A stretch of 64,000 nt of DNA. Origin: Sorex araneus. Its lineage: Eukaryota; Chordata; Mammalia; Eulipotyphla; Soricidae. Shown piece by piece: positions 3,874-63,460 of the stretch. A program made the position numbers and the translations under genes. The notes under the pieces are model-generated. The model was given only the letters and a program-made list of their open reading frames with translations, ran no database searches and was not told the DNA's origin. The DNA lies in assembly GCF_027595985.1 (NCBI RefSeq), contig NC_073313.1, positions 80,065,994 through 80,129,993 of the forward strand, given 5' to 3'. Each line of letters begins with the position of its first letter. The first letter of the stretch is position 1.

Positions 3874-4125
3874 GGGCTGGAGCGATAGCATAGCAGGTAG
3901 GGCGTTTGCCTTGCATGTGGCTGACCTGGGTTTGATTCCTCCACCCCGCTTAGAGAGCCTGGCAAGCTACTGAGAGTATCCCGCCTACACGGCAGAGCCT
4001 GGTAAGCTACCCATGGCATATCCGATGTGCCAAAAACAGTAACAACAAGTCTCACAATGGAGATGTTACTGGTGTCCGCTTGAGCAAATTGATGAACAAC
4101 GAGATGACAGTGATACAGTGATACA
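3874..4125 (+). mobile_element. SINE-B (tRNA head fused to RTE 5' UTR core and RTE 3' tail)
   Basis: Head GGGCTGGAGCGATAGCATAG through the B box GGTTTGATTCC, then an RTE 5' UTR core (GAGAGCCTGGCAAGCTAC; CATGGCATATCCGATGTGCC), then the RTE 3' end (CAATGGAGATGTTACTGG; GAGCAAATTGATGAACAAC) and a GTGATACAGTGATACA tail in place of poly(A). It is flanked by a 12-bp target duplication with two mismatches (3862-3873 GAATACACATTT, 4126-4137 GAATATGCATTT). Confidence 0.88.
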
Positions 4126-4380
4126 GAATATGCATTTATTATGCAATAAAAGTCTACTATTTGATATATTTTTCTTGTCTACTTCTTTAGAATTTGTCTA
4201 ATACATGATCCAACTACCACCTGGTATTTACCTACTTACAAATATGCATTTGAACATCAGGATAATTCTTTCTTTAATTAGGAAAGCTATTTGCTATGAG
4301 GCAGAAAACTTAAACAAAAGATAAAATATTAGTCGGGAAAATATCTCCTTGGAGTAACCCAAATGAATATTTTTGGTTCT

Positions 4381-14555: not shown

Positions 14556-14759
14556 GAAAACTTTTCACTCCCATGAGAAGCATTAATAGGGAGAGACAGA
14601 GAGAGGAAAAGTGCATGCCATGGACGTGGCGGATGGGGGTAGGGAGGGGGAACTGAGGACATTGGCGGTGGGAAACGTGCACTGGTGAAGGGACGGGTGT
14701 TGGAACATTTTATGACTAAAACCCAATCATGAGCAACTCTGTAACTGTATCTCACTGTG
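14556..14759 (+). mobile_element. L1 3' end fragment
   Basis: Includes the G-rich tract (14630-14655), GTGCACTGGTGAAGGGACGGG and CTGTAACTGTATCTCACTGTGA. It has no A tail of its own because SINE-B starts at the end of the L1 sequence. Confidence 0.75.
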
Positions 14760-14964
14760 ATGGAGCGATAGCACAGCGGGTAGGGCGTTTGCGTTGCAAG
14801 CGGCCAACCCGGGTTCGATTCCTCTGTCCCTCTCGGAGAGTCTGGCAAGCTACCTGTGGCGTATTCAATATGCCAAAAACAATAACAACAAGTCTCACAA
14901 TGGAGACGTTACTGCCCGCTCGAGCAAATTGATGAACAACTACAGTGCTACAGACAGTGCTACA
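14760..14964 (+). mobile_element. SINE-B, internally shortened
   Basis: Very well preserved tRNA head (TGGAGCGATAGCACAGCGGG, GGGTTCGATTCC). The RTE 5' UTR core is shortened (CTCGGAGAGTCTGGCAAGCT joined to CTGTGGCGTATTC). RTE 3' end CAATGGAGACGTTACTG with tail TACAGTGCTACAGACAGTGC. It lacks about 45 bp of the core present in the 61.1-kb copy. Confidence 0.86.
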
Positions 14965-16420: not shown

Positions 16421-16780
16421 TGTTTGTCAGTGTGCAGATCGTTACAACATGCCAGTTGACCAAAAGCTTATATTTGGTAGACTGGGAACCCTGTAAAGGT
16501 GATTAGAGGCCGCCCCAAAAGCCTTCATCCCTCATGGAGAGCCCGGCAAGCTACTGAGAGTATCCCGCCTGCACGGCAGAGCCTGGCAAGATACCCGTGC
16601 AGTACTTGATATGCCAAAAACAGTAACAACAGCGGTCCTCATTCCCCTGACCCTGAAAGAGCCCCCAATATACCATCGGACTATACTAGCACACGACAGG
16701 GACGAATGGAGACGTTACTGGCACCCGTTCAAGCAAATTGGTGAACAATGGGATGACAGTGACAGTGACAGTGACAGTTG
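16421..16780 (+). mobile_element. Internally deleted RTE derivative (no tRNA head)
   Basis: From about 16486 it aligns with the 5' UTR of the RTE at 56030-56180 (GGTGATTAGAGGCCGCCCC versus GGTGACTGGAGACTGCCC; then GAGAGCCCGGCAAGCTACTG and GATATGCCAAAAACAGTAAC). At about 16650 it jumps to the RTE 3' end, including ORF tail sequence (CATCGGACTATACTAGCACA, CGACAGGGACGAATGGAGAC), and ends in a GACAGT repeat (16755-16778). The left limit is approximate. The join keeps about 30 bp more of the 3' end than SINE-B does. Confidence 0.75.
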
Positions 16781-22391: not shown

Positions 22392-22640
22392 GGACTGGAG
22401 CAATAGCACAGCGGGTAGGGCGTTTGCCTTGCACACAGCCTACCCGGGTTCAATTCTCCCACCCTTCTCAGAGAGTCCGGCAAGCTACCGAGAGTATCCT
22501 GCCCACACGACAGAGCCTGGCAAGCTATCCAGGGTATTCTATATGCCAAAAACAGTAACAACAAGTCTCACAATGGAGACGTTACTGGTGCCCGCTCGAG
22601 CAAATTGACGAACAACGGGATGACAGTACTACAGTGCTAT
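22392..22640 (+). mobile_element. SINE-B
   Basis: Head GGACTGGAGCAATAGCACAG, RTE core GAGAGTCCGGCAAGCTACCG and ATATGCCAAAAACAGTAAC, RTE 3' end GGAGACGTTACTGGTGCCCG and GAGCAAATTGACGAAC, tail GACAGTACTACAGTGCT. Intron 1, sense. Confidence 0.9.
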
Positions 22641-29800: not shown

Positions 29801-32800
29801 TTCTTTGGAGGACTGGATCCTTTTTTACCCACTCTTACTTCCACAATCTGTATGCAAACTGCTCCAAGAGTGTATGAACAACAGCCTTGTTTCTGGTGTT
29901 ACGTATTTGTTAAATACTACCATATTAAGGGGGCTCGAGTGATAGCCAGCGGGTAGGGCATTTGCCTTGCATGCGGCCGACCTGGATTCAATGCCCAGCA
30001 TCCCATATGGTCTCCCCAGCATTGCCAGGAGTAATTCCTCAGTGTATGAGCCAGGACTGTATGAGCTGTGTGCATCGCCTGGTGTGACCCAAAAAGCAAA
30101 AAAAAAAAATACTAGCATGTTAAAAGTTGAAATAACAAAAAAGGACCATAGTACATCATTCAAGTTTTTCACCAGAAGTTGAAAGTATTCACTAGGCTCT
30201 CTGTTTATGTAGGGAATCAGATTCCTGGTACTTTCCACTCGTTTTTCTACTTAAGAGTCCTTTGCTCAAGATGCTATATAAGGGCTGGACAGAAAGTACA
30301 GTGGGTAGGGCACTTTCCTTGTGCGTAGCGGATCCGAATTCGATCCCCAGTATTTCACATGGTCCCCTAAGCACTACCAGGAAGAGATTCCTGAGCGGAG
30401 CCTGGAGCCAGCACTGAACATAGCCAGATGTGTCCCCCAAGCCCCAAGAAAACAGAATGTTATATGTATAGTGAAACCAGGGGAGGTTGGATATTCTGGA
30501 ATTGGACCATTTTCTCATAAAAGCAATCACTGGCATGTGCGATATTGTGGGTTCTAGGATACTCTCCTATCCTCTGCAGTTGTGACTTTTATAGCATAAG
30601 AACCCCATTCAGGCTTAAGTCTTTATTAATATACTCACTTGAGAATACTTTAAGAGGATTTCATAGGTTGCCATAGAAACACGAAATACCCATCCCATTG
30701 ATCAAAAACAAAGTCAGTGTTTCTCGAAGTGTACTAAGCAGATTATGTGTCAGGAGTACTGGGGGTTCATTCTTAACACGTTGTCTAGGTCATCACTGTA
30801 TACACTGAAGTGTGTTAAGTACTGTTCAGATAATGCGGGACTTAGTAATAGAGGGAGGAAGTCCAGGTGGAGAGAGGCAGCAGGATCTAGTTGTATAGTT
30901 AGGCACATCTACATTTCACTTTTTAGGGGGCTTTCTTATTTTAACTGTGTGTTCACTGCCTCCCCTTGTCATTAAGTCTTTTGCCCAAGTTGTGGGAAAT
31001 GCCTCTCCCATTACTATTCCAGTCAAAATTTCAGCAAATAGGCACTCATATACACTCATATACATATGGGTTGATGTATATAAGATTGTAGGGACTAGGT
31101 TTGTTGTAAATATGAGCATAGATACTGATTATACTTGTATAGTGATCTGATACATAGGACCATAAAGCAATGTTTGAGACAGGGTTGAATGCTCAGAAAA
31201 TCTGTAGGACAGCCACCCAGCTACCTTTTGACAGATAAGATATTCTGGAGGAAGGGAGGTTGTGTTGAAATAGCACGGGGGAACTGGAATGAGCCTATTT
31301 AATGTGGGGAATGAGGACAGGAGAGGAGTCTGGGCAGAATGTACCAATGTGTCCTGGCTGCAGAAATCATTTATTTTATGGGGGGGTGGTTACACATGGT
31401 GATGCTCAGGGCTTACTCTGCACTCTACACTCAGGGATCACTCCTGGTATCAGGGATTATTAACAAGTCAGGCGTGTACAAGGTAAGCACCTACCCCCTG
31501 TATTATTGCTCTAGCCCCTCAACCTTTCTTATCATTGTTTCTCACTAGTATTTTTTCTATGGCTAGCTTTTACATGTTATTTTTATCACTTGTAGCAAAT
31601 TTTTTGTGAAATACTTTGTTATAGTTTCTTTGTGTTTATCTTGCTCTTGGTTAATTGAACTATTTGGATTTGTGGGTTTATATCATTTATGAAACTCAAA
31701 AAATTATGACTATGTTTTTAAAGTTATGAGATTTTGTCTCAGGTTTAGAACCATGCATATAGTTGGAAGTTGTTCTTGACATTAATTTTTCTTATTTCTT
31801 GAGTTCATTTGATAACTACTTTATATAAAATATAAGCAATTTAAGGGCCTAAGAGATAGCTCAGAGGGTTAGATTTAGATTGCAAGGTTCCAAATTCATT
31901 CTCCAGCATTGCATGGCTCCCCCTTCTATGCAAATACCACTGGATATATCCTTGTATCATGTATCATTGCATATGGACCTAGTGGCTCCGAGAACCTCAG
32001 AGCCGAGCTGAAGCAAACCATGGGGCCAGTTGCCACTGAGAGTGACTTCTGGGCCCCCAAACACCGCTAGGGAGGTCCCAAATAAAATAATGGAATGCAA
32101 TATAAAAATATAAACATAATTCTATTTCTCTCCTTTCATCAATTTTGTTATAATTTTATATCTCCATATATTGTAAATACCTAATGAAGTACTAATTTGC
32201 CCTTACAAAGTAAGTGCTAAGTGAGAATTTTTTTTCCGTTTACTCATGTGGGTACCCTTTATTCAAGCATTCCTTTCTGTATATCAAAATTTCCATTTGG
32301 TATCATTTCCATTCATTCAAAAGGTCTTTCTTTTGTTTGGCAGTATATATTTTTGCTGAGGATTAATTTTCTCATCACTTGTATTTTGCAAAAATCCTTT
32401 ATTTTTACCTTCATTTAGAAAGATGTTTTTGTTTAGTTTTGAAATTTTAGGTTCAGAATGAACTTACTGCAGAAATTTAAATTTCATTCTACTTTCTTTT
32501 GATTTCCACAGTTCATGAACATTTATTTTATGGGGGGGTGGTTACACATGGTGATGCTCAGGGCTTACTCTGCACTCTACACTCAGGGATCACTCCTGGT
32601 ATCAGGGATTATTAACAAGTCAGGCGTGTACAAGGTAAGCACCTACCCCCTGTATTATTGCTCTAGCCCCTCAACCTTTCTTATCATTGTTTCTCACTAG
32701 TATTTTTTCTATGGCTAGCTTTTACATGTTATTTTTATCACTTGTAGCAAATTTTTTGTGAAATACTTTGTTATAGTTTCTTTGTGTTTATCTTGCTCTT

Positions 32801-35800
32801 GGTTAATTGAACTATTTGGATTTGTGGGTTTATATCATTTATGAAACTCAAAAAATTATGACTATGTTTCATTTAATTTTTATTGACATAGTATCAGTTC
32901 AAAACATCTACATTTCATGAGTACATCATTATAATTCAACATCTGTATATACCATATTATTTTTTCCCTTTTTGGGGTCACACCTGGTGATGCTCTGGGG
33001 TTACTCCTGGCTCTGAACTCAGGAATAACTCCTGGCTGAGTACGGGGGACCATATGGGATGCTGGGGATCAAACCTGGGTCAGCCCTGTGCAAGGCAAAT
33101 GCCTTCCCTACTGTACTACCATTCTGGCCTCTGTACCATAGTATTATATTTTTAGTAGGAAAATTATTTTTTATTTCTTATTTATTTTTATTTATTTTTT
33201 ATTGAATCACTGTGAGAACAGTTGCAGGGCTTTCAGGATCAATCTCAGTCATACAGTGGTCAAACACCCATCCCTTCACCAGTGCAAATGTTCCACCACC
33301 AAGAACCCCAGCACACCCCCCCCATCCACTCCCCACCTGCCTGTGTGGCCGTAGCTTAGTTCACAGTCCAAGAGTATATCTGCCAGCAGCCACTGCGTTC
33401 AGAGATTGGTTTCTGTGCCTCTGGGATAATGGCTGCCCAGGGGTGGGGGAGCCGTTCCTGAGCAGCTTTTTGTATATCAGGAAAACGTGTCCGTGCGGTT
33501 TGGAGAATTAATCCCAGTCCCATATACCAGAGCCATGTTAGTAGAAGCTCAGTGTTGCCACGACTCCATCTGGAGAAGGTGGGGACTCTGTACCTTCTTT
33601 GTCTAGCACCCCGGTGTTGTTGGCCCCGTCTGGGGTCTGGAGCATTCTCCAGCTTGTGGTGCCCGCCAGCCCGGATTCTTCCTGTACCATATTATTTTTG
33701 CAAACAAAAGTTTTAAGTTCCATCTGTCACCTTTGTACCCAGTTTCTCTGGTCCCCTTCACTTTTTTCCCTAAGTAATCTAATTTGGGGGGAGTCACATC
33801 CAGTGTTGCTCAAGGGTTACTACTGACTCTGCATTCAGAAAACCTCCTGGAGGTGCCGGAGAACCATATGGGATGTCAAGATTGAACTCCATGCAAGGCT
33901 AATACCTACTCGCTGTACAATCACTCTGGCCCAAATCTTCTATTTAATTATTTTCTATTATAAACAAATTAACTGTAGTATTTATTATGGGAAATATTAC
34001 TTTTATGGAGTTGGTTTTACACAGTTACCTCCCCTCGCTACCACTAAAGTCCTCAAGATCCCCATCCAGGTTCCTGTGTATATTCCCATCCTCCCATTCT
34101 CCCCATACTCTGGAGTTCTTGATTTGTATTCCAGTACCAAGAGTTTGTTATCAGTTGATATATTCTATTCTTTCGTTTCCCTATACATTATAGATAGGTA
34201 AGATGGCCCAGTGCTTGATTTGGGTCTTACTATTCACCTTTACCTTCTTTTTTTTTTTTTTTTTTGCTTTTTGGGTCACACTTGTCGATGCACAGGGGTT
34301 ACTCCTGGCTCTGCACTCAGGAATAACTCCTGCTGGTGCTCAGGGGACCATATGGGATGCTGGGAATCAAACTCAGGTCGGCCTTGTGAAAGGCAAACGC
34401 CCTACCCGCTGTGCTATCGCTCCAGCCCCTACCTTCATTTTTTGAGAGGACTTTAATTTCACTTAAACTACTTGACACTGTCCCTCATGTCTCCAATGTT
34501 CTAACAATATTTTTTGTCTTCTTCGCCTCTTAAATTTGGTTTTTATAGTTTTATTTCTATTTCTGCAAGCTACTGATCTTTTATCTTGCACTGTCTGTTT
34601 CACCATTCCATAGACCAGTGCTGGTGCGCATGTGTAGGAAGGTTGAAAACCACTCCACCTGCCACCTTTGTTCTACTGCCAGTCCGGTGTGCAGGATATA
34701 TATTGGTTCAGAGTTGTAAAACACTTGAAAAGCACTGGTCTAATTAGCTATTCTGAGGTGTAATTTTCCTGTTTCAGATATTTATGTAAAATGTTTATTA
34801 TAGGCTTGGTGACAAGGTTACAATAGTATTCAGTTTTCTGGTATTGATGCACAAAGAGACTCCTCACCCTCCACCACCAAAGTGCCCTGTGCCTATGCCC
34901 ACTCTGGTCTAAATTACCTCCTCTCCCACCCTGCCTCTTTTACTTGTTAGTTGACAGTTATGATTTTGGTGCGTATTGTTAGCTCCCTCAGAACCTCCCA
35001 CGATATGCTTGAGACCTCCACTTAAGTTTTCATCTTACTTCCTGGCACTCTATTCATTCTGCTTATTCCCTTACCCCTAATCTAACACTCTCAAGTCAGA
35101 TGTATATTTTTGATCTTTGGAAGTTTCCTTCATTTAAATTCCCCACTATGTTTAGTGTATTCTGTTGTCTGTCTTTGTCTTTAAATATACAAGCATGTTG
35201 AGCACCTCTTCAGGTTCCATGTGACAGGTGAGTTGTGCTTGCAAGAAAGAAAGAGAATGACAGGTCAAAAACAGCACTCCAAGTGGAATTCTAGTTTTTT
35301 ACTTTGGGTGGGATGAGGCTACAGCTTGCAGTGCTCAGGGGCTACTCCTGTGTCCATGTTGAGAGATCACCCCTGAGGTATTGAGGACATCTAGCCAGGT
35401 ATCAAACCTGGGCTTCTACATACAAACCGTGTATTTTCAGCCAATTAACTATTGTTCCTACACCAAAATGTATTTTTTGCTATAGTGTAGTTTAGGTAAA
35501 ATGAAGAAAATATTTTTCTTGTTGAAAGTGAGTAAAATGTCATCCCAAAGTTTGATGAAATATTGATCACTTTCAAATAATATTACTTAAGTTGGTGCAA
35601 AAACAAAGAAACAAAAAACCCCAACGTGCAAATGGCCATTTATTTTAGAGCAGAAAAAAGAGGTTGAAAAAGGAGTTTGAGAGGAAGGGAGGAAGATTGC
35701 AAGGGAAGGAGGAAGGAAAGAATGGTAGGACACGCTGATCACTTGTTTTTCCTGAAGAAACGAGTTACATTTTTGGAATAGATGAAAAAGAGGGTTTAAG

Positions 35801-51431: not shown

Positions 51432-51535
51432 TTTATATTAATCTCTTATAAAAGTTTAAACCTAGTTTTTGTTGTCATTGTTATGCATAGAATATAGTAA
51501 AATGAAAACATCTGTATTTCATTCTGGTGGCTTTT

Positions 51536-51892
51536 TTGGCTTTTTGGGTCACACCCAGCGATGCACAGGGCTTACTCCTAGCTCACGTACTCAGGAATTA
51601 CTCCTGGCGGTGCTTGGGGGACCATATGGGATGCTGGGTATTTAACCCGGGTCAGCCGCGTGAAAGGCAACCTACCCGCTGTGCTATTGCTCCAGCCCCA
51701 AAACTGAAGTGAGTGATGATATTTTTTTTGCTTTTTGGGTCACACCTGACGATGCTCAGGGGTTACTTCTGGCTTTGCATTCAGGAATTACTCCTGGCGG
51801 TGCTCAGGGGACCATATGGGATGCTGGGAATTGAACCCTGGTCAGCCGCGTGCAAGGCAAATGCCCTACCCGCTGTGCTATCGGTCCAGCCT
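51536..51892 (-). mobile_element. SINE-A dimer inserted as one unit
   Basis: Two antisense, near-consensus SINE-A copies (51536-51698 and about 51720-51892) are joined by about 22 bp (AAAACTGAAGTGAGTGATGA). The pair, not each unit, is flanked by a perfect duplication CATTCTGGTGGCTTTT (51520-51535 and 51893-51908). This is best explained by one read-through transcript inserted in one step. Confidence 0.88.
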
Positions 51893-52690: not shown

Positions 52691-53931
52691 ATAAGTTTGA
52701 AGTTCATGGTACAAAAACCATGAGCATGACCACTGGGGTAGAGTAAGGTTTACAGGGTGACAAGTGAGAAGTTCACTAAGGAGTAAGATAACATGTCATG
52801 AGACACACATTTGTGAAAATGTCTTATGATGAAGGTTAAGGACCCAAGTGAAACAATAGCATCAGAGGTCCTTAAATCAAAGATAATAACATCGTAGGAA
52901 TAAAGTTATTATTCAGTGTGAGACAGAAACCATAAATATCACCTCTAAATTAAGGTTATTTTTTAGTGTGTTACAGAAGTCTACAAGCTGAGTGCTGCAA
53001 AAAGTTACATGAAATATAAGAAAACATAACACATTACTACTGGACTAGAGGTAGTTCTGTGTCTCAGCAAGCATGTCAATGACTACTATAATAAATGTGG
53101 ATAATACAACGAACCTGAAAATGACTGTTGAAACATGGTTGAAGTTTGAAGTGTGACAACTTGTATGAAGTTGTCACTCAGTGTGTAACAATAGGCAAGT
53201 AGATGACTTACAAGTGTGGTTATGTTTCTGTAGGAGGCAATTAGCGTGATGTTGACCTTGGAATAAGGTAAAATGTGAGACCACAGTTATGAATAAAACC
53301 ACTGGATTATGAATAAAATTTGTTCTGAAATATCAAACAGGGAGTTGACCACTACTCTTAGGCTACTGTTGAGTAAAACCTAGTAAACTGGAAGATAAAC
53401 CATTGATATAGGTTGATCGTAAGACTGAGAGTTAAACTAGCAGAAACACGGTTATTTGTATAAAGTTAAGGTTGAGTGTGAGGCAAGCATGATGATAACT
53501 CCTGAATAAGACTAAGATTCAGTATAAAACAAAATACAGGAAGATTACCTGTGGAATGTTTTGCTTCAGATCAAGCATTTAGTTGGTGGTTAGACTGAAC
53601 TTAATGTACAGGCTGTTTGGTTGCAACAAAAAGAACGATAATGACAACTAGTATAAGTTTAAGCTTCAGTGAGCAACAATAAGCATTAAGATCTCAGGGT
53701 AATTCAATTAAAAACTAATTTTTTAAAACTTGGAATTGAGACTATATTGAATCTACAGATAAATAGGAAGATAATTGACATCTGAAGATTCTGAGAGTTC
53801 TAATCCATAGACATATCTTTTCACATAAGTTTTGCCATCCTTATTTTCTCTTAGCTGTTATATTATAATAAAATAATTATTATAATAAAATATATATAAA
53901 TTATTTTTATTATAATAATAAAATAGTTTTT

Positions 53932-55785
53932 GTATCACTTGTATCACTTGTCATCCCATTGATATTCGATTTGCTCAAGCAGGTGCCAGTAGTGTCTCCA
54001 TTTGTCCCTGTCGCATGCTAGTGTAGCCCAATGATATCTGCTCGCTCCACGAACAGGAAGAGCCCCAAATCATTCATTCGGGGTTTTGACAAAGAAGTCT
54101 GACCATCTCATTGGTGGGTGGCCACTCAGTCTTTTGACATCCCGTGGAATCCAGTCGGTAACAGTTTTAGTCCAGCAGTCGTCTCTGAATCGCATTACGT
54201 GTCCTGCCCATCTAATTTTTGACACCTTGGCAAACGAAACAGCCGCCCTGATTCTTGACCATTGACGGAGTTTGGAACTCCAGATTCCTTCTTTCACTTG
54301 AGTGAAACGTGATACTCCAAGCATAGCTATTTCCATTCCTCTTTGGGAAACCCGAATAGCATTCTCATCCTGTTTGCATAGGGCCCAGGTCTCTGAGGCG
54401 TATGTTAGTGCAGGAAGAACGGTGGAGTGAAAAAGATATGCCCGGAACTAGAGATTCTTCATCCTCTTAACCACTTCTTCAACACTCTTGAAGGCATTCC
54501 ACACTGCTCGCTTCTTCCTGCGCAGTTCTGGCGCCAAGTCGTTCCTCATGTTGAGTTGATCCAGGTACACATAGCTGCTGCATTCATAGGTGTTCGTTCC
54601 ATTGAGAGCAAATGGAATGTCAGGGACTAGTTCATTTTTCATGAACATTCTTTTAGTGAGATTCAGCTGCAGTTCGACATTTCCACACTCATGGTTGAAG
54701 TCGGCCAGCATTTGTGCCACTTGGCTAATGTTTGGTGTTATTAGAACGATGTCATCAGTGAAGCAGAGGTGGTGTAGTTGCCTACCATCTATCTTCACTC
54801 CCATTCCTTCCCATTCCACTCATCGCATGATGTTCTCGAGGGTGGCACTGAAGAGTTTCAGTGAAATGGTGTCGCCCTGCTAAACCCCTCTCTTTACGTC
54901 GATGATCACTTCCTTGTAGAATGGTGAGATCCTGGTGGTGAATCTGTAATACAGCTCATGGAGGATCTTGATGTACTGAGTTTGAATGCCCTGTTTGGCT
55001 AGTGCTTTGATGACCACTTCAGTCCCAACAGAATCAAAGGCCTTCTTTAAATCAATGAACATTAGACAGAGCGGCATCTTGAACTCTCGAGAAACTTTAA
55101 TGAGTTTGGTCACTGTGTGGATATGGTGGATAAGGTACTGAATCCTTTTCAGAACCCAGCTTGCTCACACGGTTGTCCTTTGTCTAGTGTTCTGCCTATT
55201 CTATTCAGGATGACTCGAGTGAACAACTTGTAGATGACGGATAATAGGCAGATTGGGCAATAGTTGCCTATGTCGTGGATGTCTCCCTTCTTGTACAACA
55301 GAACAGTCCTGCAAGGACGGAACCTTGCATTCGGACAGATAGCATGTGAAGCGCCAAGCCAGTATATTGACGAGTACTGGCGGAAAATTCTTCAGGTGTT
55401 TGGGTCTGGCCTTGTCTGGACCGGGTGCTGTATGCGTCTTTACCAATGAAATGGCATGTCGGATTTTAGAAGGGAGGATGTTGGGAACGACATATCCATC
55501 CTGTGGAATTTGGTATGTGGGCGGGTGGATGCGGCTGTTGAAGAAATCTCAGTAGAAGTTGTCAATAATATTCTCCATTGTTCTTCTGGAAGACTTGATA
55601 GATCCATCAGGATGTCAGAGGGCAGTCATCTTGGTCTTGTAGTTGGTGAAGGACAGGCGAGCATTGCAAATACTTTTCCTGGCTTCTGCCGCATCAGCCA
55701 ACACTGCTGCTCTTCTCTCATGAGGTCTTCTTTTATCGCTTCTCTGCACAGCTTTATGAGCTCAGACATTAGCATGTGGTTGCCT
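53932..55785 (-). pseudogene. RTE ORF, reverse transcriptase half (broken)
   Basis: Read right to left: APGPDKARPKHLKN (55446-55201), LMFIDLKKAFDSV (RT motif A, 55113-54880), VKRGV then a stop and QGD, the catalytic box as HHLCFTDDIVLITP (54819-54448; the usual FADD reads FTDD), then the C-terminal IRWAGHVMRFRDDCW and HPPMRWSDFF (54336-54070). Close in sequence, by recollection, to RTE proteins of strongylid nematodes. At least four interruptions make it non-functional. Confidence 0.88.
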
Positions 55786-57236
55786 ACAATCTCAGGCTCC
55801 CTGCCCTGGGGATCAAATTCAGACGACCCACCCTACCGGAGCCAGATAAATATCTCACCGGCCTACCTCCACTATCTCTACTACCAAGTCACCGCCATGC
55901 TCCAGGCCACTTTCCAGACTGCACGGCTGCTTTGCAGCTATGTGACAAGAGCATAGGACACTTACTACCCATTTTACATAATTTTCACAGCATATTTGAT
56001 GGGCTTCAAATATGGTATGAACCATGGGAACATCTGAGAGGGTGACTGGAGACTGCCCTAAAAGCCTCCATCCTCTTGGAGAGCTCAGAAAGCTACCAAG
56101 AATACCCCGCCCACATGGCAGAGCCTAGCAAGCTACCCGTGGCGTATTCGATGTGCCAAAAATAGTAACAACAATGGGTCTCATTTGCCTGACACCCAAT
56201 ACAGCAGCGTTAAGTAGGATGAGCAAGGAGAGGCTGATAAGTCTCAGGGATGAACTAGACTGCCAAAATGAAGAAAGACTAAAATGACTGTACTTTCAAT
56301 GCATGTTCACTGGCATCAGAAGCATCCATCGAGGACCTGATGGTGCAAGCACAGAAGATAAGGTACATCATTGGTCTGACCAAAACGAGAAGGCATCAAT
56401 CACATCACGCCATTTTCGGCACTGGAGAAGAACTGTTCCTCGGAATATGCGACAACAGAGGCATCGGTGGTGTCGGTGTCCTTGTCAACTCGGACTTGGC
56501 CATGAGCATTGATTCATTCGAATGCCTAACAACCCAAGTTGGACAATTACGCTTGAGTAGATGTGACTCACTGCCGGCAGTTTCTATCTTCATCATCTAC
56601 GCACCAACATCCAACTATGATGAATAAGAAATTGAGGAGTTCTACATGGAGGTGGAGTTCTATAAAGAAGACCACACCTTCTACAAGATCATAGTTGGTG
56701 ATTTTAATGCCAAGATAGGACCATGAAGGTCGCCTGAAGAACTCCACATTGGGTCCCTTGGCCTAGAATGGAATGAACAGGGTGAGAGACTGTCTGATGG
56801 TAACTCACAGTTCCAGAAGGCCGAATCTAAACGTTGGACATGGAAGTCTCCTGGTGGACAGTTCCACAAGGAAACTGACCACATCATATTCAATCGAAGG
56901 TTTTGCCTGACTGATGTCGCTGTTGTCCAAAAATTCCAAACGGGATTGGACCACCATCTCCTTCGTGCAAAATTCTACTTCACAGAGCAGGGAGAAAGGA
57001 CTGCAAAGTTTAAGAAGCGAACTCCCAGAATGACCACCACCTGGGAGTTCTTTGGCACTACTGTGGCAATGTGGGAAGATACCATCGTCCACAACATCGA
57101 TGAGGAATACAATCAACTGGTTCAGCACCTCCATGATTGTGTGAAAAATGCCGAGAGTGGGAAAGCCACAAACAGACGCCTGTCTTTGGAAACTCTCGAG
57201 CTCATTCACCAACGTGGTTTGGCATGAACCTCAGGC
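55786..57236 (+). pseudogene. RTE 5' UTR and endonuclease half (inverted, broken)
   Basis: 5' UTR to about 56280, including the core shared with SINE-B (GAGAGCTCAGAAAGCTACC at 56079 to GTCTCA at 56178). The endonuclease follows: KIRYIIGLTKTRRH, GIGGVGVLVNSDLAM, YAPTSNYDE then a stop, GDFNAKIG near 56697, ESKRWTWKSPGGQFH, DHIIFNRRF and LDHHLLRAKF (the usual SDH motif), ending with RRLSLETLELIHQRGLA. EN motifs are mostly recognisable but two stops and a shift interrupt them. Confidence 0.86.
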
Positions 57237-57535
57237 AAAATAATTTTTACTTTAAAGAAAGATGACTTCTAGAATAAAGTCAAGACTCATGCAGTCAACA
57301 TAAACAAGATTACTAGTGGAATGAAGTTAATCCCAGTATGTCACAGTGATCATTGATGGGAACACAGTGATAAGGTTTAGAATCTGTCAACAATGTAGAT
57401 GATTACTAATAGAGTATGTTGACTTAGAATGACACAGCTACCAAAGATATTTCTGTTTGAATAAAGGCAACATTAAAGCAACACAATAAGTATGATGATC
57501 ATGTCTGTACTAGGTAAGGTTAAGATTTAACAAAA

Positions 57536-57646
57536 AGGGGCTGAATACTACAAGAGACAAAGATGCTTGCCTTGAAGCAACTAACTTCAGCTCAATCCCT
57601 GGCACTACATGGTTCCCCAGACATTGCTTGTTGTGACAAAAAAGGA
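57536..57646 (+). mobile_element. SINE-A with shortened body
   Basis: GGGGCTGAATACTACAAGAG head, CTCAATCCCTGGCACTACATGG, tail GTGACAAAAAAGG. Confidence 0.65.
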
Positions 57647-57778
57647 GAACTAATGTGAGATGAGTATAATAATGACCGCTTTAATACAGTTAGTGATTAG
57701 TGTCAGATAATCTGTGTGAGGGTAAGAACTGAAATAAAGTTTTGTTTCACTGTATGACAACAAGCTTACTGATGAACA

Positions 57779-57942
57779 CTAGAGTTAGAGAGATAGTACA
57801 AGGGTTAAGGCACTTATCTTGCATGCAGGCAATCTTGTTTCTATCTCCAGCACTGCATGTGGTCCCCTGAGTACCATCAGGTGTGATCCATGACCACATA
57901 GCCAGGAATAATCCCTGAGTACCAACAACCCCTGCCCCCAAA
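57779..57942 (+). mobile_element. SINE-A
   Basis: AGAGTTAGAGAGATAGTACAAGGG head, GCACTGCATGTGGTCCCCTGAG body. Confidence 0.82.
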
Positions 57943-58194
57943 TGATGAATGCTAAAAAATGCAATTATTCAATGTGAGACAACAGACTTGAATATGACTA
58001 CCTCAATGGATTATACTGCAGACACAAGAAACGATAAAGTGAAGTTTCAGTGTAAAAATATAAATATGATGAAGGCAAATAGAAATTGTGTCTATTTAAT
58101 GTCTCCTAACAAAAGAATAGTTATGCCTCCTGGTATATAACAAAAGGCCACAGGGAAGGATAGGAATAAATAGGTTGCCTTTAATGTGCACAGT

Positions 58195-58480
58195 TACTTC
58201 CTTACACAGGAACATAAGTGGAGAGTCTCTTGCACTATGTGCTAAGCACTCCAGTGCTAAGGAAAGTACCAGTCCACTCTAAAACCATAACTATCAACAA
58301 ATAATGGGGAGATGGGTGGGTGGGAAGGAACATTTGACTGGAGGTGACATAGGGATGGGAGGAGGGTCATGGGCACTTTGGTAGCAGGTAACTTTGTACA
58401 TCAATACTAGAAATTGAAAACTATTGAAACCCTATCACCTAAACTATAATAAAAATAAGAAAATAAAATAATATTAGAGA
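58195..58480 (+). mobile_element. Degraded L1 3' end (possible)
   Basis: G-rich GGTGGGTGGGAAGG and GGGATGGGAGGAGGGTC tracts, then CTATCACCTAAACTATAATAAAAATAAG. The layout resembles an L1 3' UTR with A tail. Confidence 0.4.
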
Positions 58481-58728
58481 AAGCAAAGAAAAGAATCAGT
58501 GTGAAATAATAATGATGAATGCTTAAGTAAAGTGAAGGTTCAGTATAACACAGTAAGCATGAAAATGAAATAACTTAAGATTTTTGTTTGAAGACAAGCC
58601 AGATGATGGCCCCAGTTATATTGTGTGTGACAGCAAGAATTAAGATGATGACTTTAACAAGTCATCATCTTTATTAATTAAAACAAGGTTTAATTAAAAA
58701 ACAAAGTTAATTAAAACAAGATTTTTTT

Positions 58729-59660
58729 CTGTTTTTTTATTAGTTTATTTTTAATTAGAGAGTCATCGTGAGGGTACAGTTACAGATTTATACATTTTTG
58801 TGCTCATGTTTCCCCCATACAAAGCTCGATAAACCATCCCTTCACCAGTGCCCATTCTCTACCACCAGTAAACCCGACATCCCTCCCACCCTCCCCAGTC
58901 CCGTCTCCCCCCACCTCACACTGCCACTATGGCAGGGTATTCCCTTTTGATCTCTATCTCTGATTAGGTGTTGTGGTTTGCAATAAAGGTGTTGAGTGGC
59001 CATTGTGTTCAGTCTCTAGTCTGTATTCGGCCCGCATCACCCTTCCCCCACATGACCTCCGACCACATTTTACTTGGTGGTCCCTTCCCTGAGTTACCCA
59101 GAATGAGAGACCAGCCTCCAAGCCATGGAGACAACCTCCTGGTACTTATTTCTACTATTCTTGGGCGTTAGTCTTATAGTCTATTATTCTATATTCCACA
59201 GATGAGTGCAATCTTTCTATGTCTGTCTCTCTCTTTCTGACTCATTTCACTTAGCATGATACTTTCCAGGCTGATCCACTTATATGCAAACTTCATGACC
59301 TCATTTTGTCTAACAGCTGCATAGTATTCCATTGTATAGATATACCAAAGTTTCTTCAACCAGTCATCTGTTCTAGGGCACTCGGGTTTTTTCCAGATTC
59401 TGGCTATTGTAAACAGTGTGCGGTGAACATATAAGTACATATGTCACTTCGACTATACTTTTTAGCTTTTCTGGGATATATTCCCATCAGTGGTATTGCT
59501 GGGTCAAATGGGAGCTCAACCTCTAGTTTTTTGAGAATCGTCCATATTGTTTTCCAAAAGGGCTGAACTAGCCGGCATTCCCACCAGCAGTGTAGAAGGG
59601 TCCCTTTCTCCCCACATCCTCTCCAACAGCGGTTGCTTTTGTTCTTTTGGATGTGTGCTA
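58729..59660 (-). mobile_element. Young L1, 5'-truncated, perfect TSD
   Basis: Poly-T at the left, then 3' UTR with C-rich tract (58860-58920), then ORF2 end to 59660. A 16-bp duplication TAAAACAAGATTTTTT flanks it exactly (58713-58728 and 59661-59676). Sequence is close to the L1 at 9079-10457. Confidence 0.92.
59189..59660 (-). pseudogene. L1 ORF2p C-terminal fragment
   Basis: The frame 59440-59189 reads [19 protein letters not shown] to ICGI, the same as the 9.2-kb copy. Upstream (59660-59445) [17 protein letters not shown] is present but shifted by a small deletion near 59425. Confidence 0.88.
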
Positions 59661-59802
59661 TAAAACAAGATTTTTTAACAAGGTTATGTTTTAATTTATG
59701 ATATCAAATATGACAAACACTGAAAATCAATCTCAAATATAAAAAGAAATTAAAAGGAACACAGCAGGGATTTGAATAACACAACTCCACTTATATCTGG
59801 AT

Positions 59803-59988
59803 TTTTGTTTGTTTGTTTGTTTTGGTCCCACACCTGGCAGTGTTCAGTGCTGCCTTCTGGCACTATGTTCAGGAATCACGCTGGGTGGAGCTCAGGGGAC
59901 CATATGGGTTCCAGGGGTTGAACCCGGGTCAGCAGTTCAGCTGCTTGCAAGGCAAGCTCCTTCCCTGTTGTGCTATTGCTCTGACCCA
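59803..59988 (-). mobile_element. SINE-A
   Basis: (GTTT)n tail, GGTCCCACACCTGGCAGTGTTC body, a small insertion in the head (AGCAGTTCAGCTGC), ATTGCTCTGACCC end. Confidence 0.85.
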
Positions 59989-61105
59989 AGCTGGATTTTT
60001 TTTCTGTTGGTGATCCCAAATTCCCAGCTTCAACCAATTTTAGATGTCGATTGCTTGAGTCCCCGGTTGGAGAAACGACAAATAATGAAAGATTGATTAT
60101 AAATTATACATGAATTTTTCACTGTGTAGCAGATTGACACTACTAACCATCAGTTGTTCAAAAGATAATGATATTCATAAGTTTTTGAAAAGGTCGAGTG
60201 AGGTAAATGAAAAGTGAGGACAGTTCCTGGCCCTGATAAACTTTAAAGAATTGCTTATCATTACAGCCAGGAGCAGCAGCAGCACCATCATCGTCATTAC
60301 GATGACAATTTCTTTGAAAATGACTGTTGCCGTATGGGTCCCTCTGTTCACTGGGCTAAACAGAAACCCTTCTTCCAGGAAAGAGTATACACAGCTGCAT
60401 GTAGCTAATGCTTCTCATCTGTGATTGGAATCTGTGCTCCAGGAAAACAACTTAGTAGATAACATTCATGTTGAGAGGTATATATAGGCCTGAAGTTTCC
60501 AGGAAACAGGCATGGGAAATATTTAACCCATCTATAAATTTAGAAAAACAGAAATTTTCTTCTGTAACTTTTACATAGTTTCACTTCCAAGGACTCTCAG
60601 CGAGGCAGGCACTTAGTAGCTAAGATAAAAACAGTGAACACAACAAACTGGATGTTTTAGATATATCCTACATTCATAGAAGGAATGAAGTTATTCTCCC
60701 CATGGGAAGATACGCAGATTCCTTTGTACACTATTATCCTCCCTGTCTCTCAACTCCTTTTACATCATACTTCCAGCTGTCATCTCTTATTTGCCTTCTA
60801 TCATGAAGTCCTTGTTTAGGCACCAATCATTGCATAGGCAATAGGAATAGTGTAAGATCAAGATGTGACTCTGAATGGAGAGCTCAAGGAAAATCTCCCA
60901 GGGTATGTTCTTTGGAAATCTAGCATCTATTATATTATTCTCTGCCAGTTTATACAATGGTATAGCAGAGAAACCTAGACCTTCTGTCCAGTTTTGCTAG
61001 GGAATTAGGAAATCCTGTCATAGAATACCTTAACATGTTAGCAATAGAAGTAATCCTAGGCAAGTGTGGGGTCCTACTGATCTAAAATTTTAAATTTTAC
61101 TTTAT
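59989..61105. other. Intergenic DNA
   Basis: 1.1 kb without recognised repeats or exons; a short AGCAGCAGCAGC run at about 60273. Confidence 0.45.
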
Positions 61106-61120
61106 ACTTCTGAAGTCTTT

Positions 61121-61373
61121 GGACTGGAGCAATAGCATAGTGGATAGGGCGTAAGCCTTGCACGCGGCTGACCCAGGTTCAATTCCTCCATCCCTCTCAG
61201 AGAGCTCGGCAAGGTACCAAGAGTATCCCGCCCACATGGCAGAGCCTGGCAAGCTACCTGTGGCGTATTCGATATACCAAAACAGTAACAACAAGTCTCA
61301 CAATGGAGACGTTACTGGTGCCAGCTTGAGCAAATCGACGAACAATGGGATGACAGTGCTAAAGTGCAGTGCT
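61121..61373 (+). mobile_element. SINE-B, full length with perfect TSD
   Basis: tRNA head (GGACTGGAGCAATAGCATAG to GGTTCAATTCC), RTE 5' UTR core about 61198-61300 (GAGAGCTCGGCAAGGTACC, GCAGAGCCTGGCAAGCTACC, GGCGTATTCGATATACC), RTE 3' end from about 61303 (ATGGAGACGTTACTGG, TTGAGCAAATCGACGAAC, GGGATGACAGTGC). Exact 15-bp duplication ACTTCTGAAGTCTTT (61106-61120, 61374-61388). Confidence 0.93.
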
Positions 61374-61680
61374 ACTTCTGAAGTCTTTAATCTTTTATAA
61401 AAAATTTATATCTGTATCTGGAAATATTTCAAGACTAAAAAATGAGCACATCTAGCATGTTTGTTATATTATTTTTCATCAAAGATTAGCAAAATTGTCT
61501 CCTACATAGGCAATCAATAGATATTAAGTAGGTGACCTTGTTTTAAAATGTTCATGGGATTAGAAGTAATATAAGGTCATTCATGGAGTCTTTTGAACCT
61601 TAATAGTGGTGAAAATGTAGTAACTTTGGATATCAAACACATAACACTATTATTACTATGTAATATGAACTCTAATGACT

Positions 61681-61856
61681 GGGGCTAGAGCAACAGTACA
61701 GAGGGCAGGGCCCTTGACTTGCACATGGCTGACCAATGTTCAATCCCTGGCACCCCATATGTTCCCCTGAGCTTGCCAGGAGTGATCCTTGAGCACAAAG
61801 CCAGGAGTAATCCCTGAGTAAGCATCACCAGGTGTGGCCCCAAACAAACAAAAACC
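61681..61856 (+). mobile_element. SINE-A
   Basis: GGGGCTAGAGCAACAGTACAG head, GCACCCCATATGTTCCCCTGAG body, tail GGCCCCAAACAAACAAAAACC. Confidence 0.88.
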
Positions 61857-62000
61857 CTGGACTACAATGAAAGTAAAAATTAAAATTAAATATAATTGAA
61901 ATTTAGGAATTGGTATCTTAGGTGTTACCTCATAGATATGAAAACTCCATCCAAAGTCATGTTTTTAGTTTGATGCTTCACTATTGGTATACTGAAATTA

Positions 62001-62168
62001 CTGTAATTTTGGTTTGGGAACTACGCCCAGTGGTGCTCAGGTCTCACACCTGAGCACTTAGAGATCACAACTGGAGGGTCTTGGGGCACAATATGGAATG
62101 CTGGGCATCAAATCTGGGTCAGACGTGTTCAAGGCAAATGCCCTGCCTGATGTTCTATTACTTGAGCC
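62001..62168 (-). mobile_element. SINE-A with perfect TSD
   Basis: Antisense copy flanked by TGGTATACTGAAATTA (61985-62000 and 62169-62184), 16 bp exact, although the SINE itself is moderately diverged. Confidence 0.9.
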
Positions 62169-62575
62169 TGGTATACTGAAATTATTAATAATTTTAATAT
62201 TAATAAATTAATACTTTCAATGGTTTATTAATTATTGATATTTTATTTTAAAGGGGATTTTTATTTTATTTTAAAACTTACATATTTAAAATTTTATTTT
62301 TTAATTTTTAAAGAGGTTTCTTTTTCTCTTTTCCACTGGGGCCCTGTAAATACTGTAGCTTTTCCTGACATCACACACATGACACAACACTGAATAAAAT
62401 TCATGCACACTGAAGAGTAGAATTACCAGGTATGCCAAATGAGAATAAAAGTCAAAAGTTTCTTTGAGAACATATTCTAGTAATTTATATTTAACACCCC
62501 CCACTTTATAATTTGTGAAAAATCTTCAACCTCGTTGTCAAGGCACTAATCTTCACCCATAAAAGATGTGACCTT

Positions 62576-62832
62576 GTATCACTGTCACTGTATCACTGTC
62601 ATCCCATTGCTTATCAATTTGCTCAAGTGGGCACCAGTAACATCTCCATTGTGAGACTTGCTGTTAACTGTTTTTGGCATATCGAATACACCACGGGTAG
62701 CTTGCCAGGCTCTGCCGTGGGGGACGAGATACTCTTGGTAGCTCGCTGGGATGTCTGAGAGGGGCAGAGGAAACGAACCCAGGTCAGCTGCGCGCAAGGC
62801 AAACGCCCTACCTACTGTGCTATCACTTCAGT
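62576..62832 (-). mobile_element. SINE-B, antisense
   Basis: From the left: ATCACTGTCACTGTATCACTG tail, RTE 3' end (CCAGTAACATCTCCATTGTGA), RTE core (GGCATATCGAATACACCACGGG; GTAGCTTGCCAGGCTCTGCC), then the tRNA head with CGAACCCAGGTCAGC. Confidence 0.9.
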
Positions 62833-63460
62833 AAGAAAAAAGTATGCCATTTTGTGCTGTCAATTTGCAGACACTGTCTAGCTTGCACAGGGCAAACAAC
62901 TTAGGAAGACCTTAATAGATACTGTGTGCTGGGTCACATAAGTTCCCAAATGCGGGATCAGTGTTGACCAGAACAGAATGTGGCCCAGACAATGATTGAA
63001 AAATCTGGGTTCTGTGCTGCCTTTTGCTTCATAGCAAGATTCTAAAGGTGTGATTTCCAAAGAGAAGCCCACATAACTCTAAGGAAACTTGTTGGCCTTG
63101 GGAAAGGAAACAAACAATTAAAGGAAATGATGAGAAAGTGTAAAGAGCATGGGTAGGAGGTGGGGGTGGGTAAACGGGTAGAAAGAAATTCTAAACCAAA
63201 CATCATAATGTTTGTTCCAAAATATTGGTTGAGGATCAGAATACAAATTCCTTGAGTGCCTCTTGTATGCTGAACACTTTACAAAAATAATCATACACGA
63301 TGACACAATATCCCTGTGGCAAAGTACAGTTCCCATATATGCTCAGAAAAATTCAGGCCTGAGAATGATATGTAATGCAAGTCAAGCGTCTTTTACACTC
63401 ACGTACTAGAGACCACTGTGAAAGGAACATGGTTTGTGGTCCCAGCAAAGCCGGAAAATG
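62833..63460. other. Intergenic DNA
   Basis: Nothing recognised. Confidence 0.4.

Follow-up and report, generated by a model that had tools for sequence, protein, structure and literature searches.

A tRNA-headed SINE of the common shrew, very probably built from both ends of a nematode-related RTE element

Gogolevsky et al. (2008) are reported to have found that the long interspersed element (LINE) part of all Bov-B-mobilised short interspersed elements (SINEs) then known consists of two sequences, from the 5' and the 3' region of Bov-B; these SINEs are reportedly Bov-tA, Ped-1, Ped-2, AfroSINE and Mar-1. According to Suh et al. (2016), all AviRTE SINEs (ManaSINE1, GymnSINE, BuceSINE, ManaSINE2 and MeloSINE) share a bipartite tail taken from the 5' and 3' untranslated regions (UTRs) and carry different heads (PMC4844689). 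Ohshima (2013) describes transfer RNA (tRNA)-headed RTE SINEs together with four mammalian elements that have the RTE 5' end as part of their promoter; its table names the four as Bov-A2, RTESINE1, MAR4 and RTE1-N1_LA, in which the RTE 5' end replaces a tRNA-type promoter and the tail is that of an RTE, and gives the ID SINE as the source of the Ped-2 head (PMC3747384). Here we describe, in 64,000 nucleotides of the common shrew Sorex araneus (NC_073313.1, positions 80,065,994 to 80,129,993, hereafter the window), a SINE that we call SINE-B, in which a tRNA-like head precedes a core and a tail from the two ends of an RTE element. All copy counts, pairings and element searches refer to this one 64-kb window. 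The first-pass annotation of this DNA had regarded the keeping of both donor-LINE ends as unusual, but the two papers make it a described pattern for RTE-partnered SINEs (PMC4844689, PMC3747384). The shrew both-ends SINE is real and well supported, and it is a further example of this published design.

SINE-B resembles the AviRTE SINEs in that both RTE UTRs are present in its body, and ManaSINE1 also has a tRNA-type head. The AviRTE SINEs differ in that they depend on another RTE family, live in birds and have heads from tRNA-Glu, 5S, 28S or GC-rich sequence, whereas the head of SINE-B is of the tRNA-Ala type and came via an existing SINE (PMC4844689). The difference from the Bov-B SINEs is that Bov-B belongs to a different RTE lineage from the shrew RTE. 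The rows shown of the table in PMC3747384 contain no shrew entry, and no description of a shrew SINE of this composition was found among the literature matches listed, a search to which most subscription journals, Repbase and Dfam were external. SINE-B may be catalogued in Repbase or Dfam.

The three parts, a tRNA-Ala-like head, a core from the RTE 5' UTR and a tail from the RTE 3' end, are found in 5/5 SINE-B copies, and all five copies named in the first-pass annotation are present. These are 3874-4126 (+ strand; head, RTE 5' core at 3938-4054 and RTE 3' tail from 4056), 14759-14963 (+ strand, the 14761 copy), 22392-22640 (+ strand), 61121-61372 (+ strand) and 62832-62574 (- strand); the copies at 22392-22640 and 62832-62574 are recognised by alignment, profile matches and the shared joint described below. 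The source of the core is a segment of the RTE 5' UTR at 56065-56183 (+ strand), about 100 bp upstream of the protein start in nematode relatives (a start placed by eye), and the source of the tail, placed by alignment, is the RTE 3' end from 54002 to about 53930 (- strand). The match of the core to the RTE 5' UTR had been noticed before with 56079-56183 as its source; the match holds, and the true source is slightly longer. The core begins at RTE position 56065 in the 3874 and 61121 copies and at 56072 in the 62832 copy, while its start is blurred into the head in the 22392 copy and lost in the 14761 copy. All five copies contain the RTE 5' segment, one of them only in part. When the majority consensus of the five copies is compared with the RTE, 103/116 bases of the core and 57/68 of the tail are identical; single copies are about 79-90% identical to the RTE, so that the earlier wording of a core matching nearly base for base was overstated. 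Each alignment of core or tail to the RTE scores above all 200 shuffles of its own copy, the weakest being the tail of the 14761 copy (54 versus 33).

In 5/5 SINE-B copies the core and the tail meet at the same joint, GTCTCACAATGGAGA, and just before this joint all five have 3 bases fewer than the RTE. The common joint and the common shortening indicate one origin of the copies, and together with the alignments the joint backs the proposed three-part anatomy with core and tail descended from the RTE. The core also contains two direct repeats of the motif AGAGCCTGGCAAGCTACC, 40 bp apart (in the window the motif occurs 13 times at <=3 mismatches, with 0.04 expected). The 14761 copy has only one (14837-14854), about 40 bp of its core being gone between the two repeats, and this can be either a private deletion or the mark of a subfamily. 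The exact boundary between head and core is uncertain by several bases, because both SINE-A (the second SINE of the window, described below) and the RTE have CC at that point. The copies diverge from their own consensus by 8.5-11.8% (Kimura two-parameter distance), or 6-10% without CpG sites, values that are underestimates with n=5.

The donor is one RTE insertion at 53932-57236, of which the 3' part is on the - strand while the 5' part is inverted and so is on the + strand, an arrangement overlooked in the first-pass annotation. Two reverse transcriptase pieces (54448-54819 and 54880-55164, - strand) match RVT_1 and the endonuclease side (56283-57227, + strand) matches endonuclease families; none of these Pfam matches reaches its curated cut-off, as the copy is decayed and was searched in pieces. 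When compared with the nematode relative P0078, the 5' part stops at residue 192 and the 3' part starts at residue 194, and because these residues adjoin we consider this a single element that was cut and inverted at one point. A 12-bp duplication with one mismatch brackets it (53920-53931 and 57237-57248; p = 0.0125 versus random window segments, in AT-rich DNA). The inversion and the bracketing duplication, which is probably a target duplication, are, we assume, what twin priming by the RTE machinery would leave.

The relatives of this RTE are dominated by nematodes. For the reverse transcriptase piece there are 75 matches, and 62/62 of those with a named source are from strongylid nematodes; for the endonuclease piece, among 120 of 128 matches listed, 112 are named and comprise 111 nematodes and one Sorex fumeus. 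That shrew protein (P0126, annotated as craniofacial development protein 2-like) is 75% identical to RTE 56727-57227 over 53% of the query and is probably a transposon annotated as a gene. Among solved structures, the reverse transcriptase piece finds R2 and L1 proteins (best E = 4.8e-05), and for the endonuclease-side piece the best hit has E = 0.15, to unrelated proteins. According to Dunemann and Wasmuth (2019, PMC6542046), RTE1_Sar has many copies in the common shrew, occurs outside it in strongylid nematodes, and was horizontally transferred between them and Sorex araneus. The RTE of the window is like RTE1_Sar in having an endonuclease and a reverse transcriptase with strongylid relatives. 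The nematode-dominated relatives agree with the horizontal origin suggested for this RTE in the first-pass annotation and are consistent with PMC6542046, whose main text has 0 occurrences of SINE and 0 of UTR.

The head of SINE-B was expected to be that of SINE-A, and 61/65 bases are indeed identical between the two consensuses. ARAGORN makes a sole tRNA call in the window, in the SINE-A copy at 51891-51722 (- strand), where the head at 51816-51888 is called as tRNA-Ala with anticodon tgc; a head of this type gave rise to that of SINE-B. In the SINE-B copy at 62832-62574, the head (62769-62829) scores 19.7 with the Rfam tRNA model, under the gathering score of 29. The head has putative A- and B-box motifs, judged by eye. 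The SINE-A copies at 51699-51532 and 51891-51722 adjoin each other in the same orientation (51532-51891). Fourteen SINE-A copies lie 5-45% from their own consensus and, given this divergence, older copies are present within the family. Homology between the RTE and the body of SINE-A was considered and rejected, the scores on the two strands being 26 and 23 versus 34 for the best of 100 shuffles. A Soricidae SINE primer for blood-meal PCR is given in Table 1 of PMC8608897; this forward primer is exact in 3 SINE-A copies and occurs in 10 places at <=2 mismatches, with none expected. On this sequence match, SINE-A is the A-tailed shrew SINE of PMC8608897. The primer extends into the SINE-A body, which is absent from SINE-B, and 0/10 primer places are in SINE-B.

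Two other elements, absent from the list in the first-pass annotation, join both ends of the RTE. The one at 16466-16768 (+ strand) joins RTE 56003-56205 (154/196 bases identical) to RTE 54037-53935 (80/99), and the one at 2494-2213 (- strand) joins RTE 56058 to about 56250 (an end read by eye) to RTE 54007-53933 (62/72). In neither did the profile search match a tRNA head. They are like Bov-A2, RTESINE1, MAR4 and RTE1-N1_LA in having an RTE 5' end, an RTE tail and no tRNA head, and differ from these in that the latter are ruminant, marsupial and elephant families (PMC3747384). Each of the two junctions retains RTE bases that are missing in the other, so neither can be derived from the other. 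SINE-B has a third junction, which may have arisen from either of these by additional deletion. The window holds three different internal deletions that all spare the same 5' segment; two are mutually independent and that of SINE-B is possibly secondary. With profile searches, 8 cores (E <= 4.2e-17) and 8 tails (E <= 5.7e-15) were detected, each core having its own tail. As 7/8 cores and 8/8 tails were in the profile models, their own scores are so by construction, and what is informative is that no others turned up: the best remaining tail match has E = 0.61 versus 0.74 for the best match in the reversed window, and no orphan core or tail rises above the control level. A BLAST scan at E <= 1e-3 gave no further RTE fragments in the window.

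From these data SINE-B is very probably a tRNA-headed, RTE-dependent shrew SINE, with the head of SINE-A, an RTE 5' segment fused to the RTE 3' end and an RTE-type terminus. Movement of SINE-B by L1 in the manner of SINE-A, with the RTE pieces incidental, would fit the head shared with an A-tailed SINE, and the sole clear SINE-B target duplication, a perfect 16 bp around the 61121 copy (61105-61120 and 61373-61388; p = 0.001 versus 2000 random window segments), resembles those of 12-17 bp in 3/5 SINE-A copies tested. It is scarcely credible, however, since poly(A) is found in 0/5 SINE-B copies (longest A-run 2-3) and every copy is closed by the RTE 3' end with its RTE-type short terminal repeat; A-runs of >=6 are present in 10/10 SINE-A copies, hand-picked as near full length. 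Lack of poly(A) and the terminal repeat had already led the first-pass annotation to propose movement by the RTE machinery, and mobilisation of SINE-B by the RTE does appear probable from its ends. The reverse direction of transfer, in which a SINE supplied the core to this particular RTE copy, is very unlikely. The window has a single RTE copy with coding sequence, and in theory no other RTE copy need have the core. Against this, no tRNA head lies beside the core in the RTE, and two more RTE-derived copies hold the core in longer RTE 5' sequence (56003-56205 and 56058 to about 56250), past the limits of the SINE-B core. As these headless copies continue into RTE sequence, the core is native to the 5' region of the RTE rather than a chance insertion into a single copy; both other RTE-derived copies in the window thus carry it, where RTE copies without the core would have spoken against the proposed origin.

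What the core does is a separate matter. We propose, tentatively and with some doubt, that the 5' UTR segment could be a signal that RTE-clade machinery needs in the copied RNA (for example, a second-strand binding site), so that parasitic SINEs could not do without either end; with the shrew element, a third, separately invaded RTE lineage would then have converged on this plan after Bov-B and AviRTE. Alternatively, SINE-B arose from an internally deleted RTE whose 5' piece survived by chance, mobilisation depending on the 3' tail alone. We give this an even chance. It has the same composition and RTE partner as the RTE-dependent SINE described above and differs on the role of the core alone. 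In line with such a relic, a shared 3' tail is taken to recruit LINE machinery, with eel experiments in support (PMC3747384). RNA structure has so far given the signal no support: a conserved fold of the core is weak (covariation term +0.54, compensatory change in 1/22 pairs), and for the tail compensatory changes are found in 0/13 pairs (covariation term -0.53). On the other hand, 8/8 tails detected in the window keep the core at least in part, three different internal junctions retain the same 5' segment, and the plan of 5' plus 3' part arose several times on AviRTE (PMC4844689).

A ribozyme in the core was rejected, as none came up when 53500-63000 was compared with Rfam at E <= 5; the five matches, all below their gathering scores, are two small nucleolar RNAs, one microRNA, one small RNA family and the tRNA match on the head at 62769-62829. 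No trace of a protein was found either: the 53 residues before the open reading frame gave 58 candidates, none at E <= 1. When nine translated frames were compared with 195 relative proteins (5 shuffles per frame), one frame of the 2494-2213 copy scored 47 versus 36 for its own best shuffle, and the shuffles of another frame reached 51. The core thus looks non-coding from its sequence. Patterns of the exact core and of a degenerate tail had 0 matches in viral contigs.

The headless copies suggest, from their sequence structure, that RTEs deleted down to both ends came first and that the SINE-A head was gained later. A nematode-derived, RTE1_Sar-like RTE would have entered the shrew lineage, where internally deleted RNAs or copies retaining both ends would have arisen more than once, the two headless copies being such forms. 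One shortened form would then have acquired the SINE-A head; the most likely route is a template switch close to the CC that both have after the B box. This head would allow transcription of SINE-B by RNA polymerase III, and its tail would be recognised by the reverse transcriptase of the RTE, which would insert the element through target-primed reverse transcription. Two results weigh against this account. Support in the tree of the eight copies is weak (36-62%, with 45% for the SINE-B group), and a significant target duplication was not found in 4/5 SINE-B copies nor in either headless copy, where it is perhaps eroded. Because of the weak tree, the single origin of SINE-B is read from indels common to its copies, and the order given here is a proposed one.

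Elsewhere in the window, a 300-bp direct repeat that is 100% identical (31368-31667 and 32520-32819, spacing 1152 bp) can be a recent duplication, gene conversion or an assembly artefact.

The remaining interest of SINE-B lies in convergence, as the both-ends plan is found on a third RTE family and the same 5' segment has been spared by several deletions within a single window. The shrew, a mammal whose RTE is nematode-derived, joins the animals whose RTE gave rise to SINEs from both of its ends. As SINE-B and the headless copies match the RTE at both ends, they could inflate RTE copy counts in estimates of abundance or age. Why RTE SINEs, unlike most SINEs, retain a 5' piece is a puzzle that becomes approachable by comparing three separate RTE lineages.

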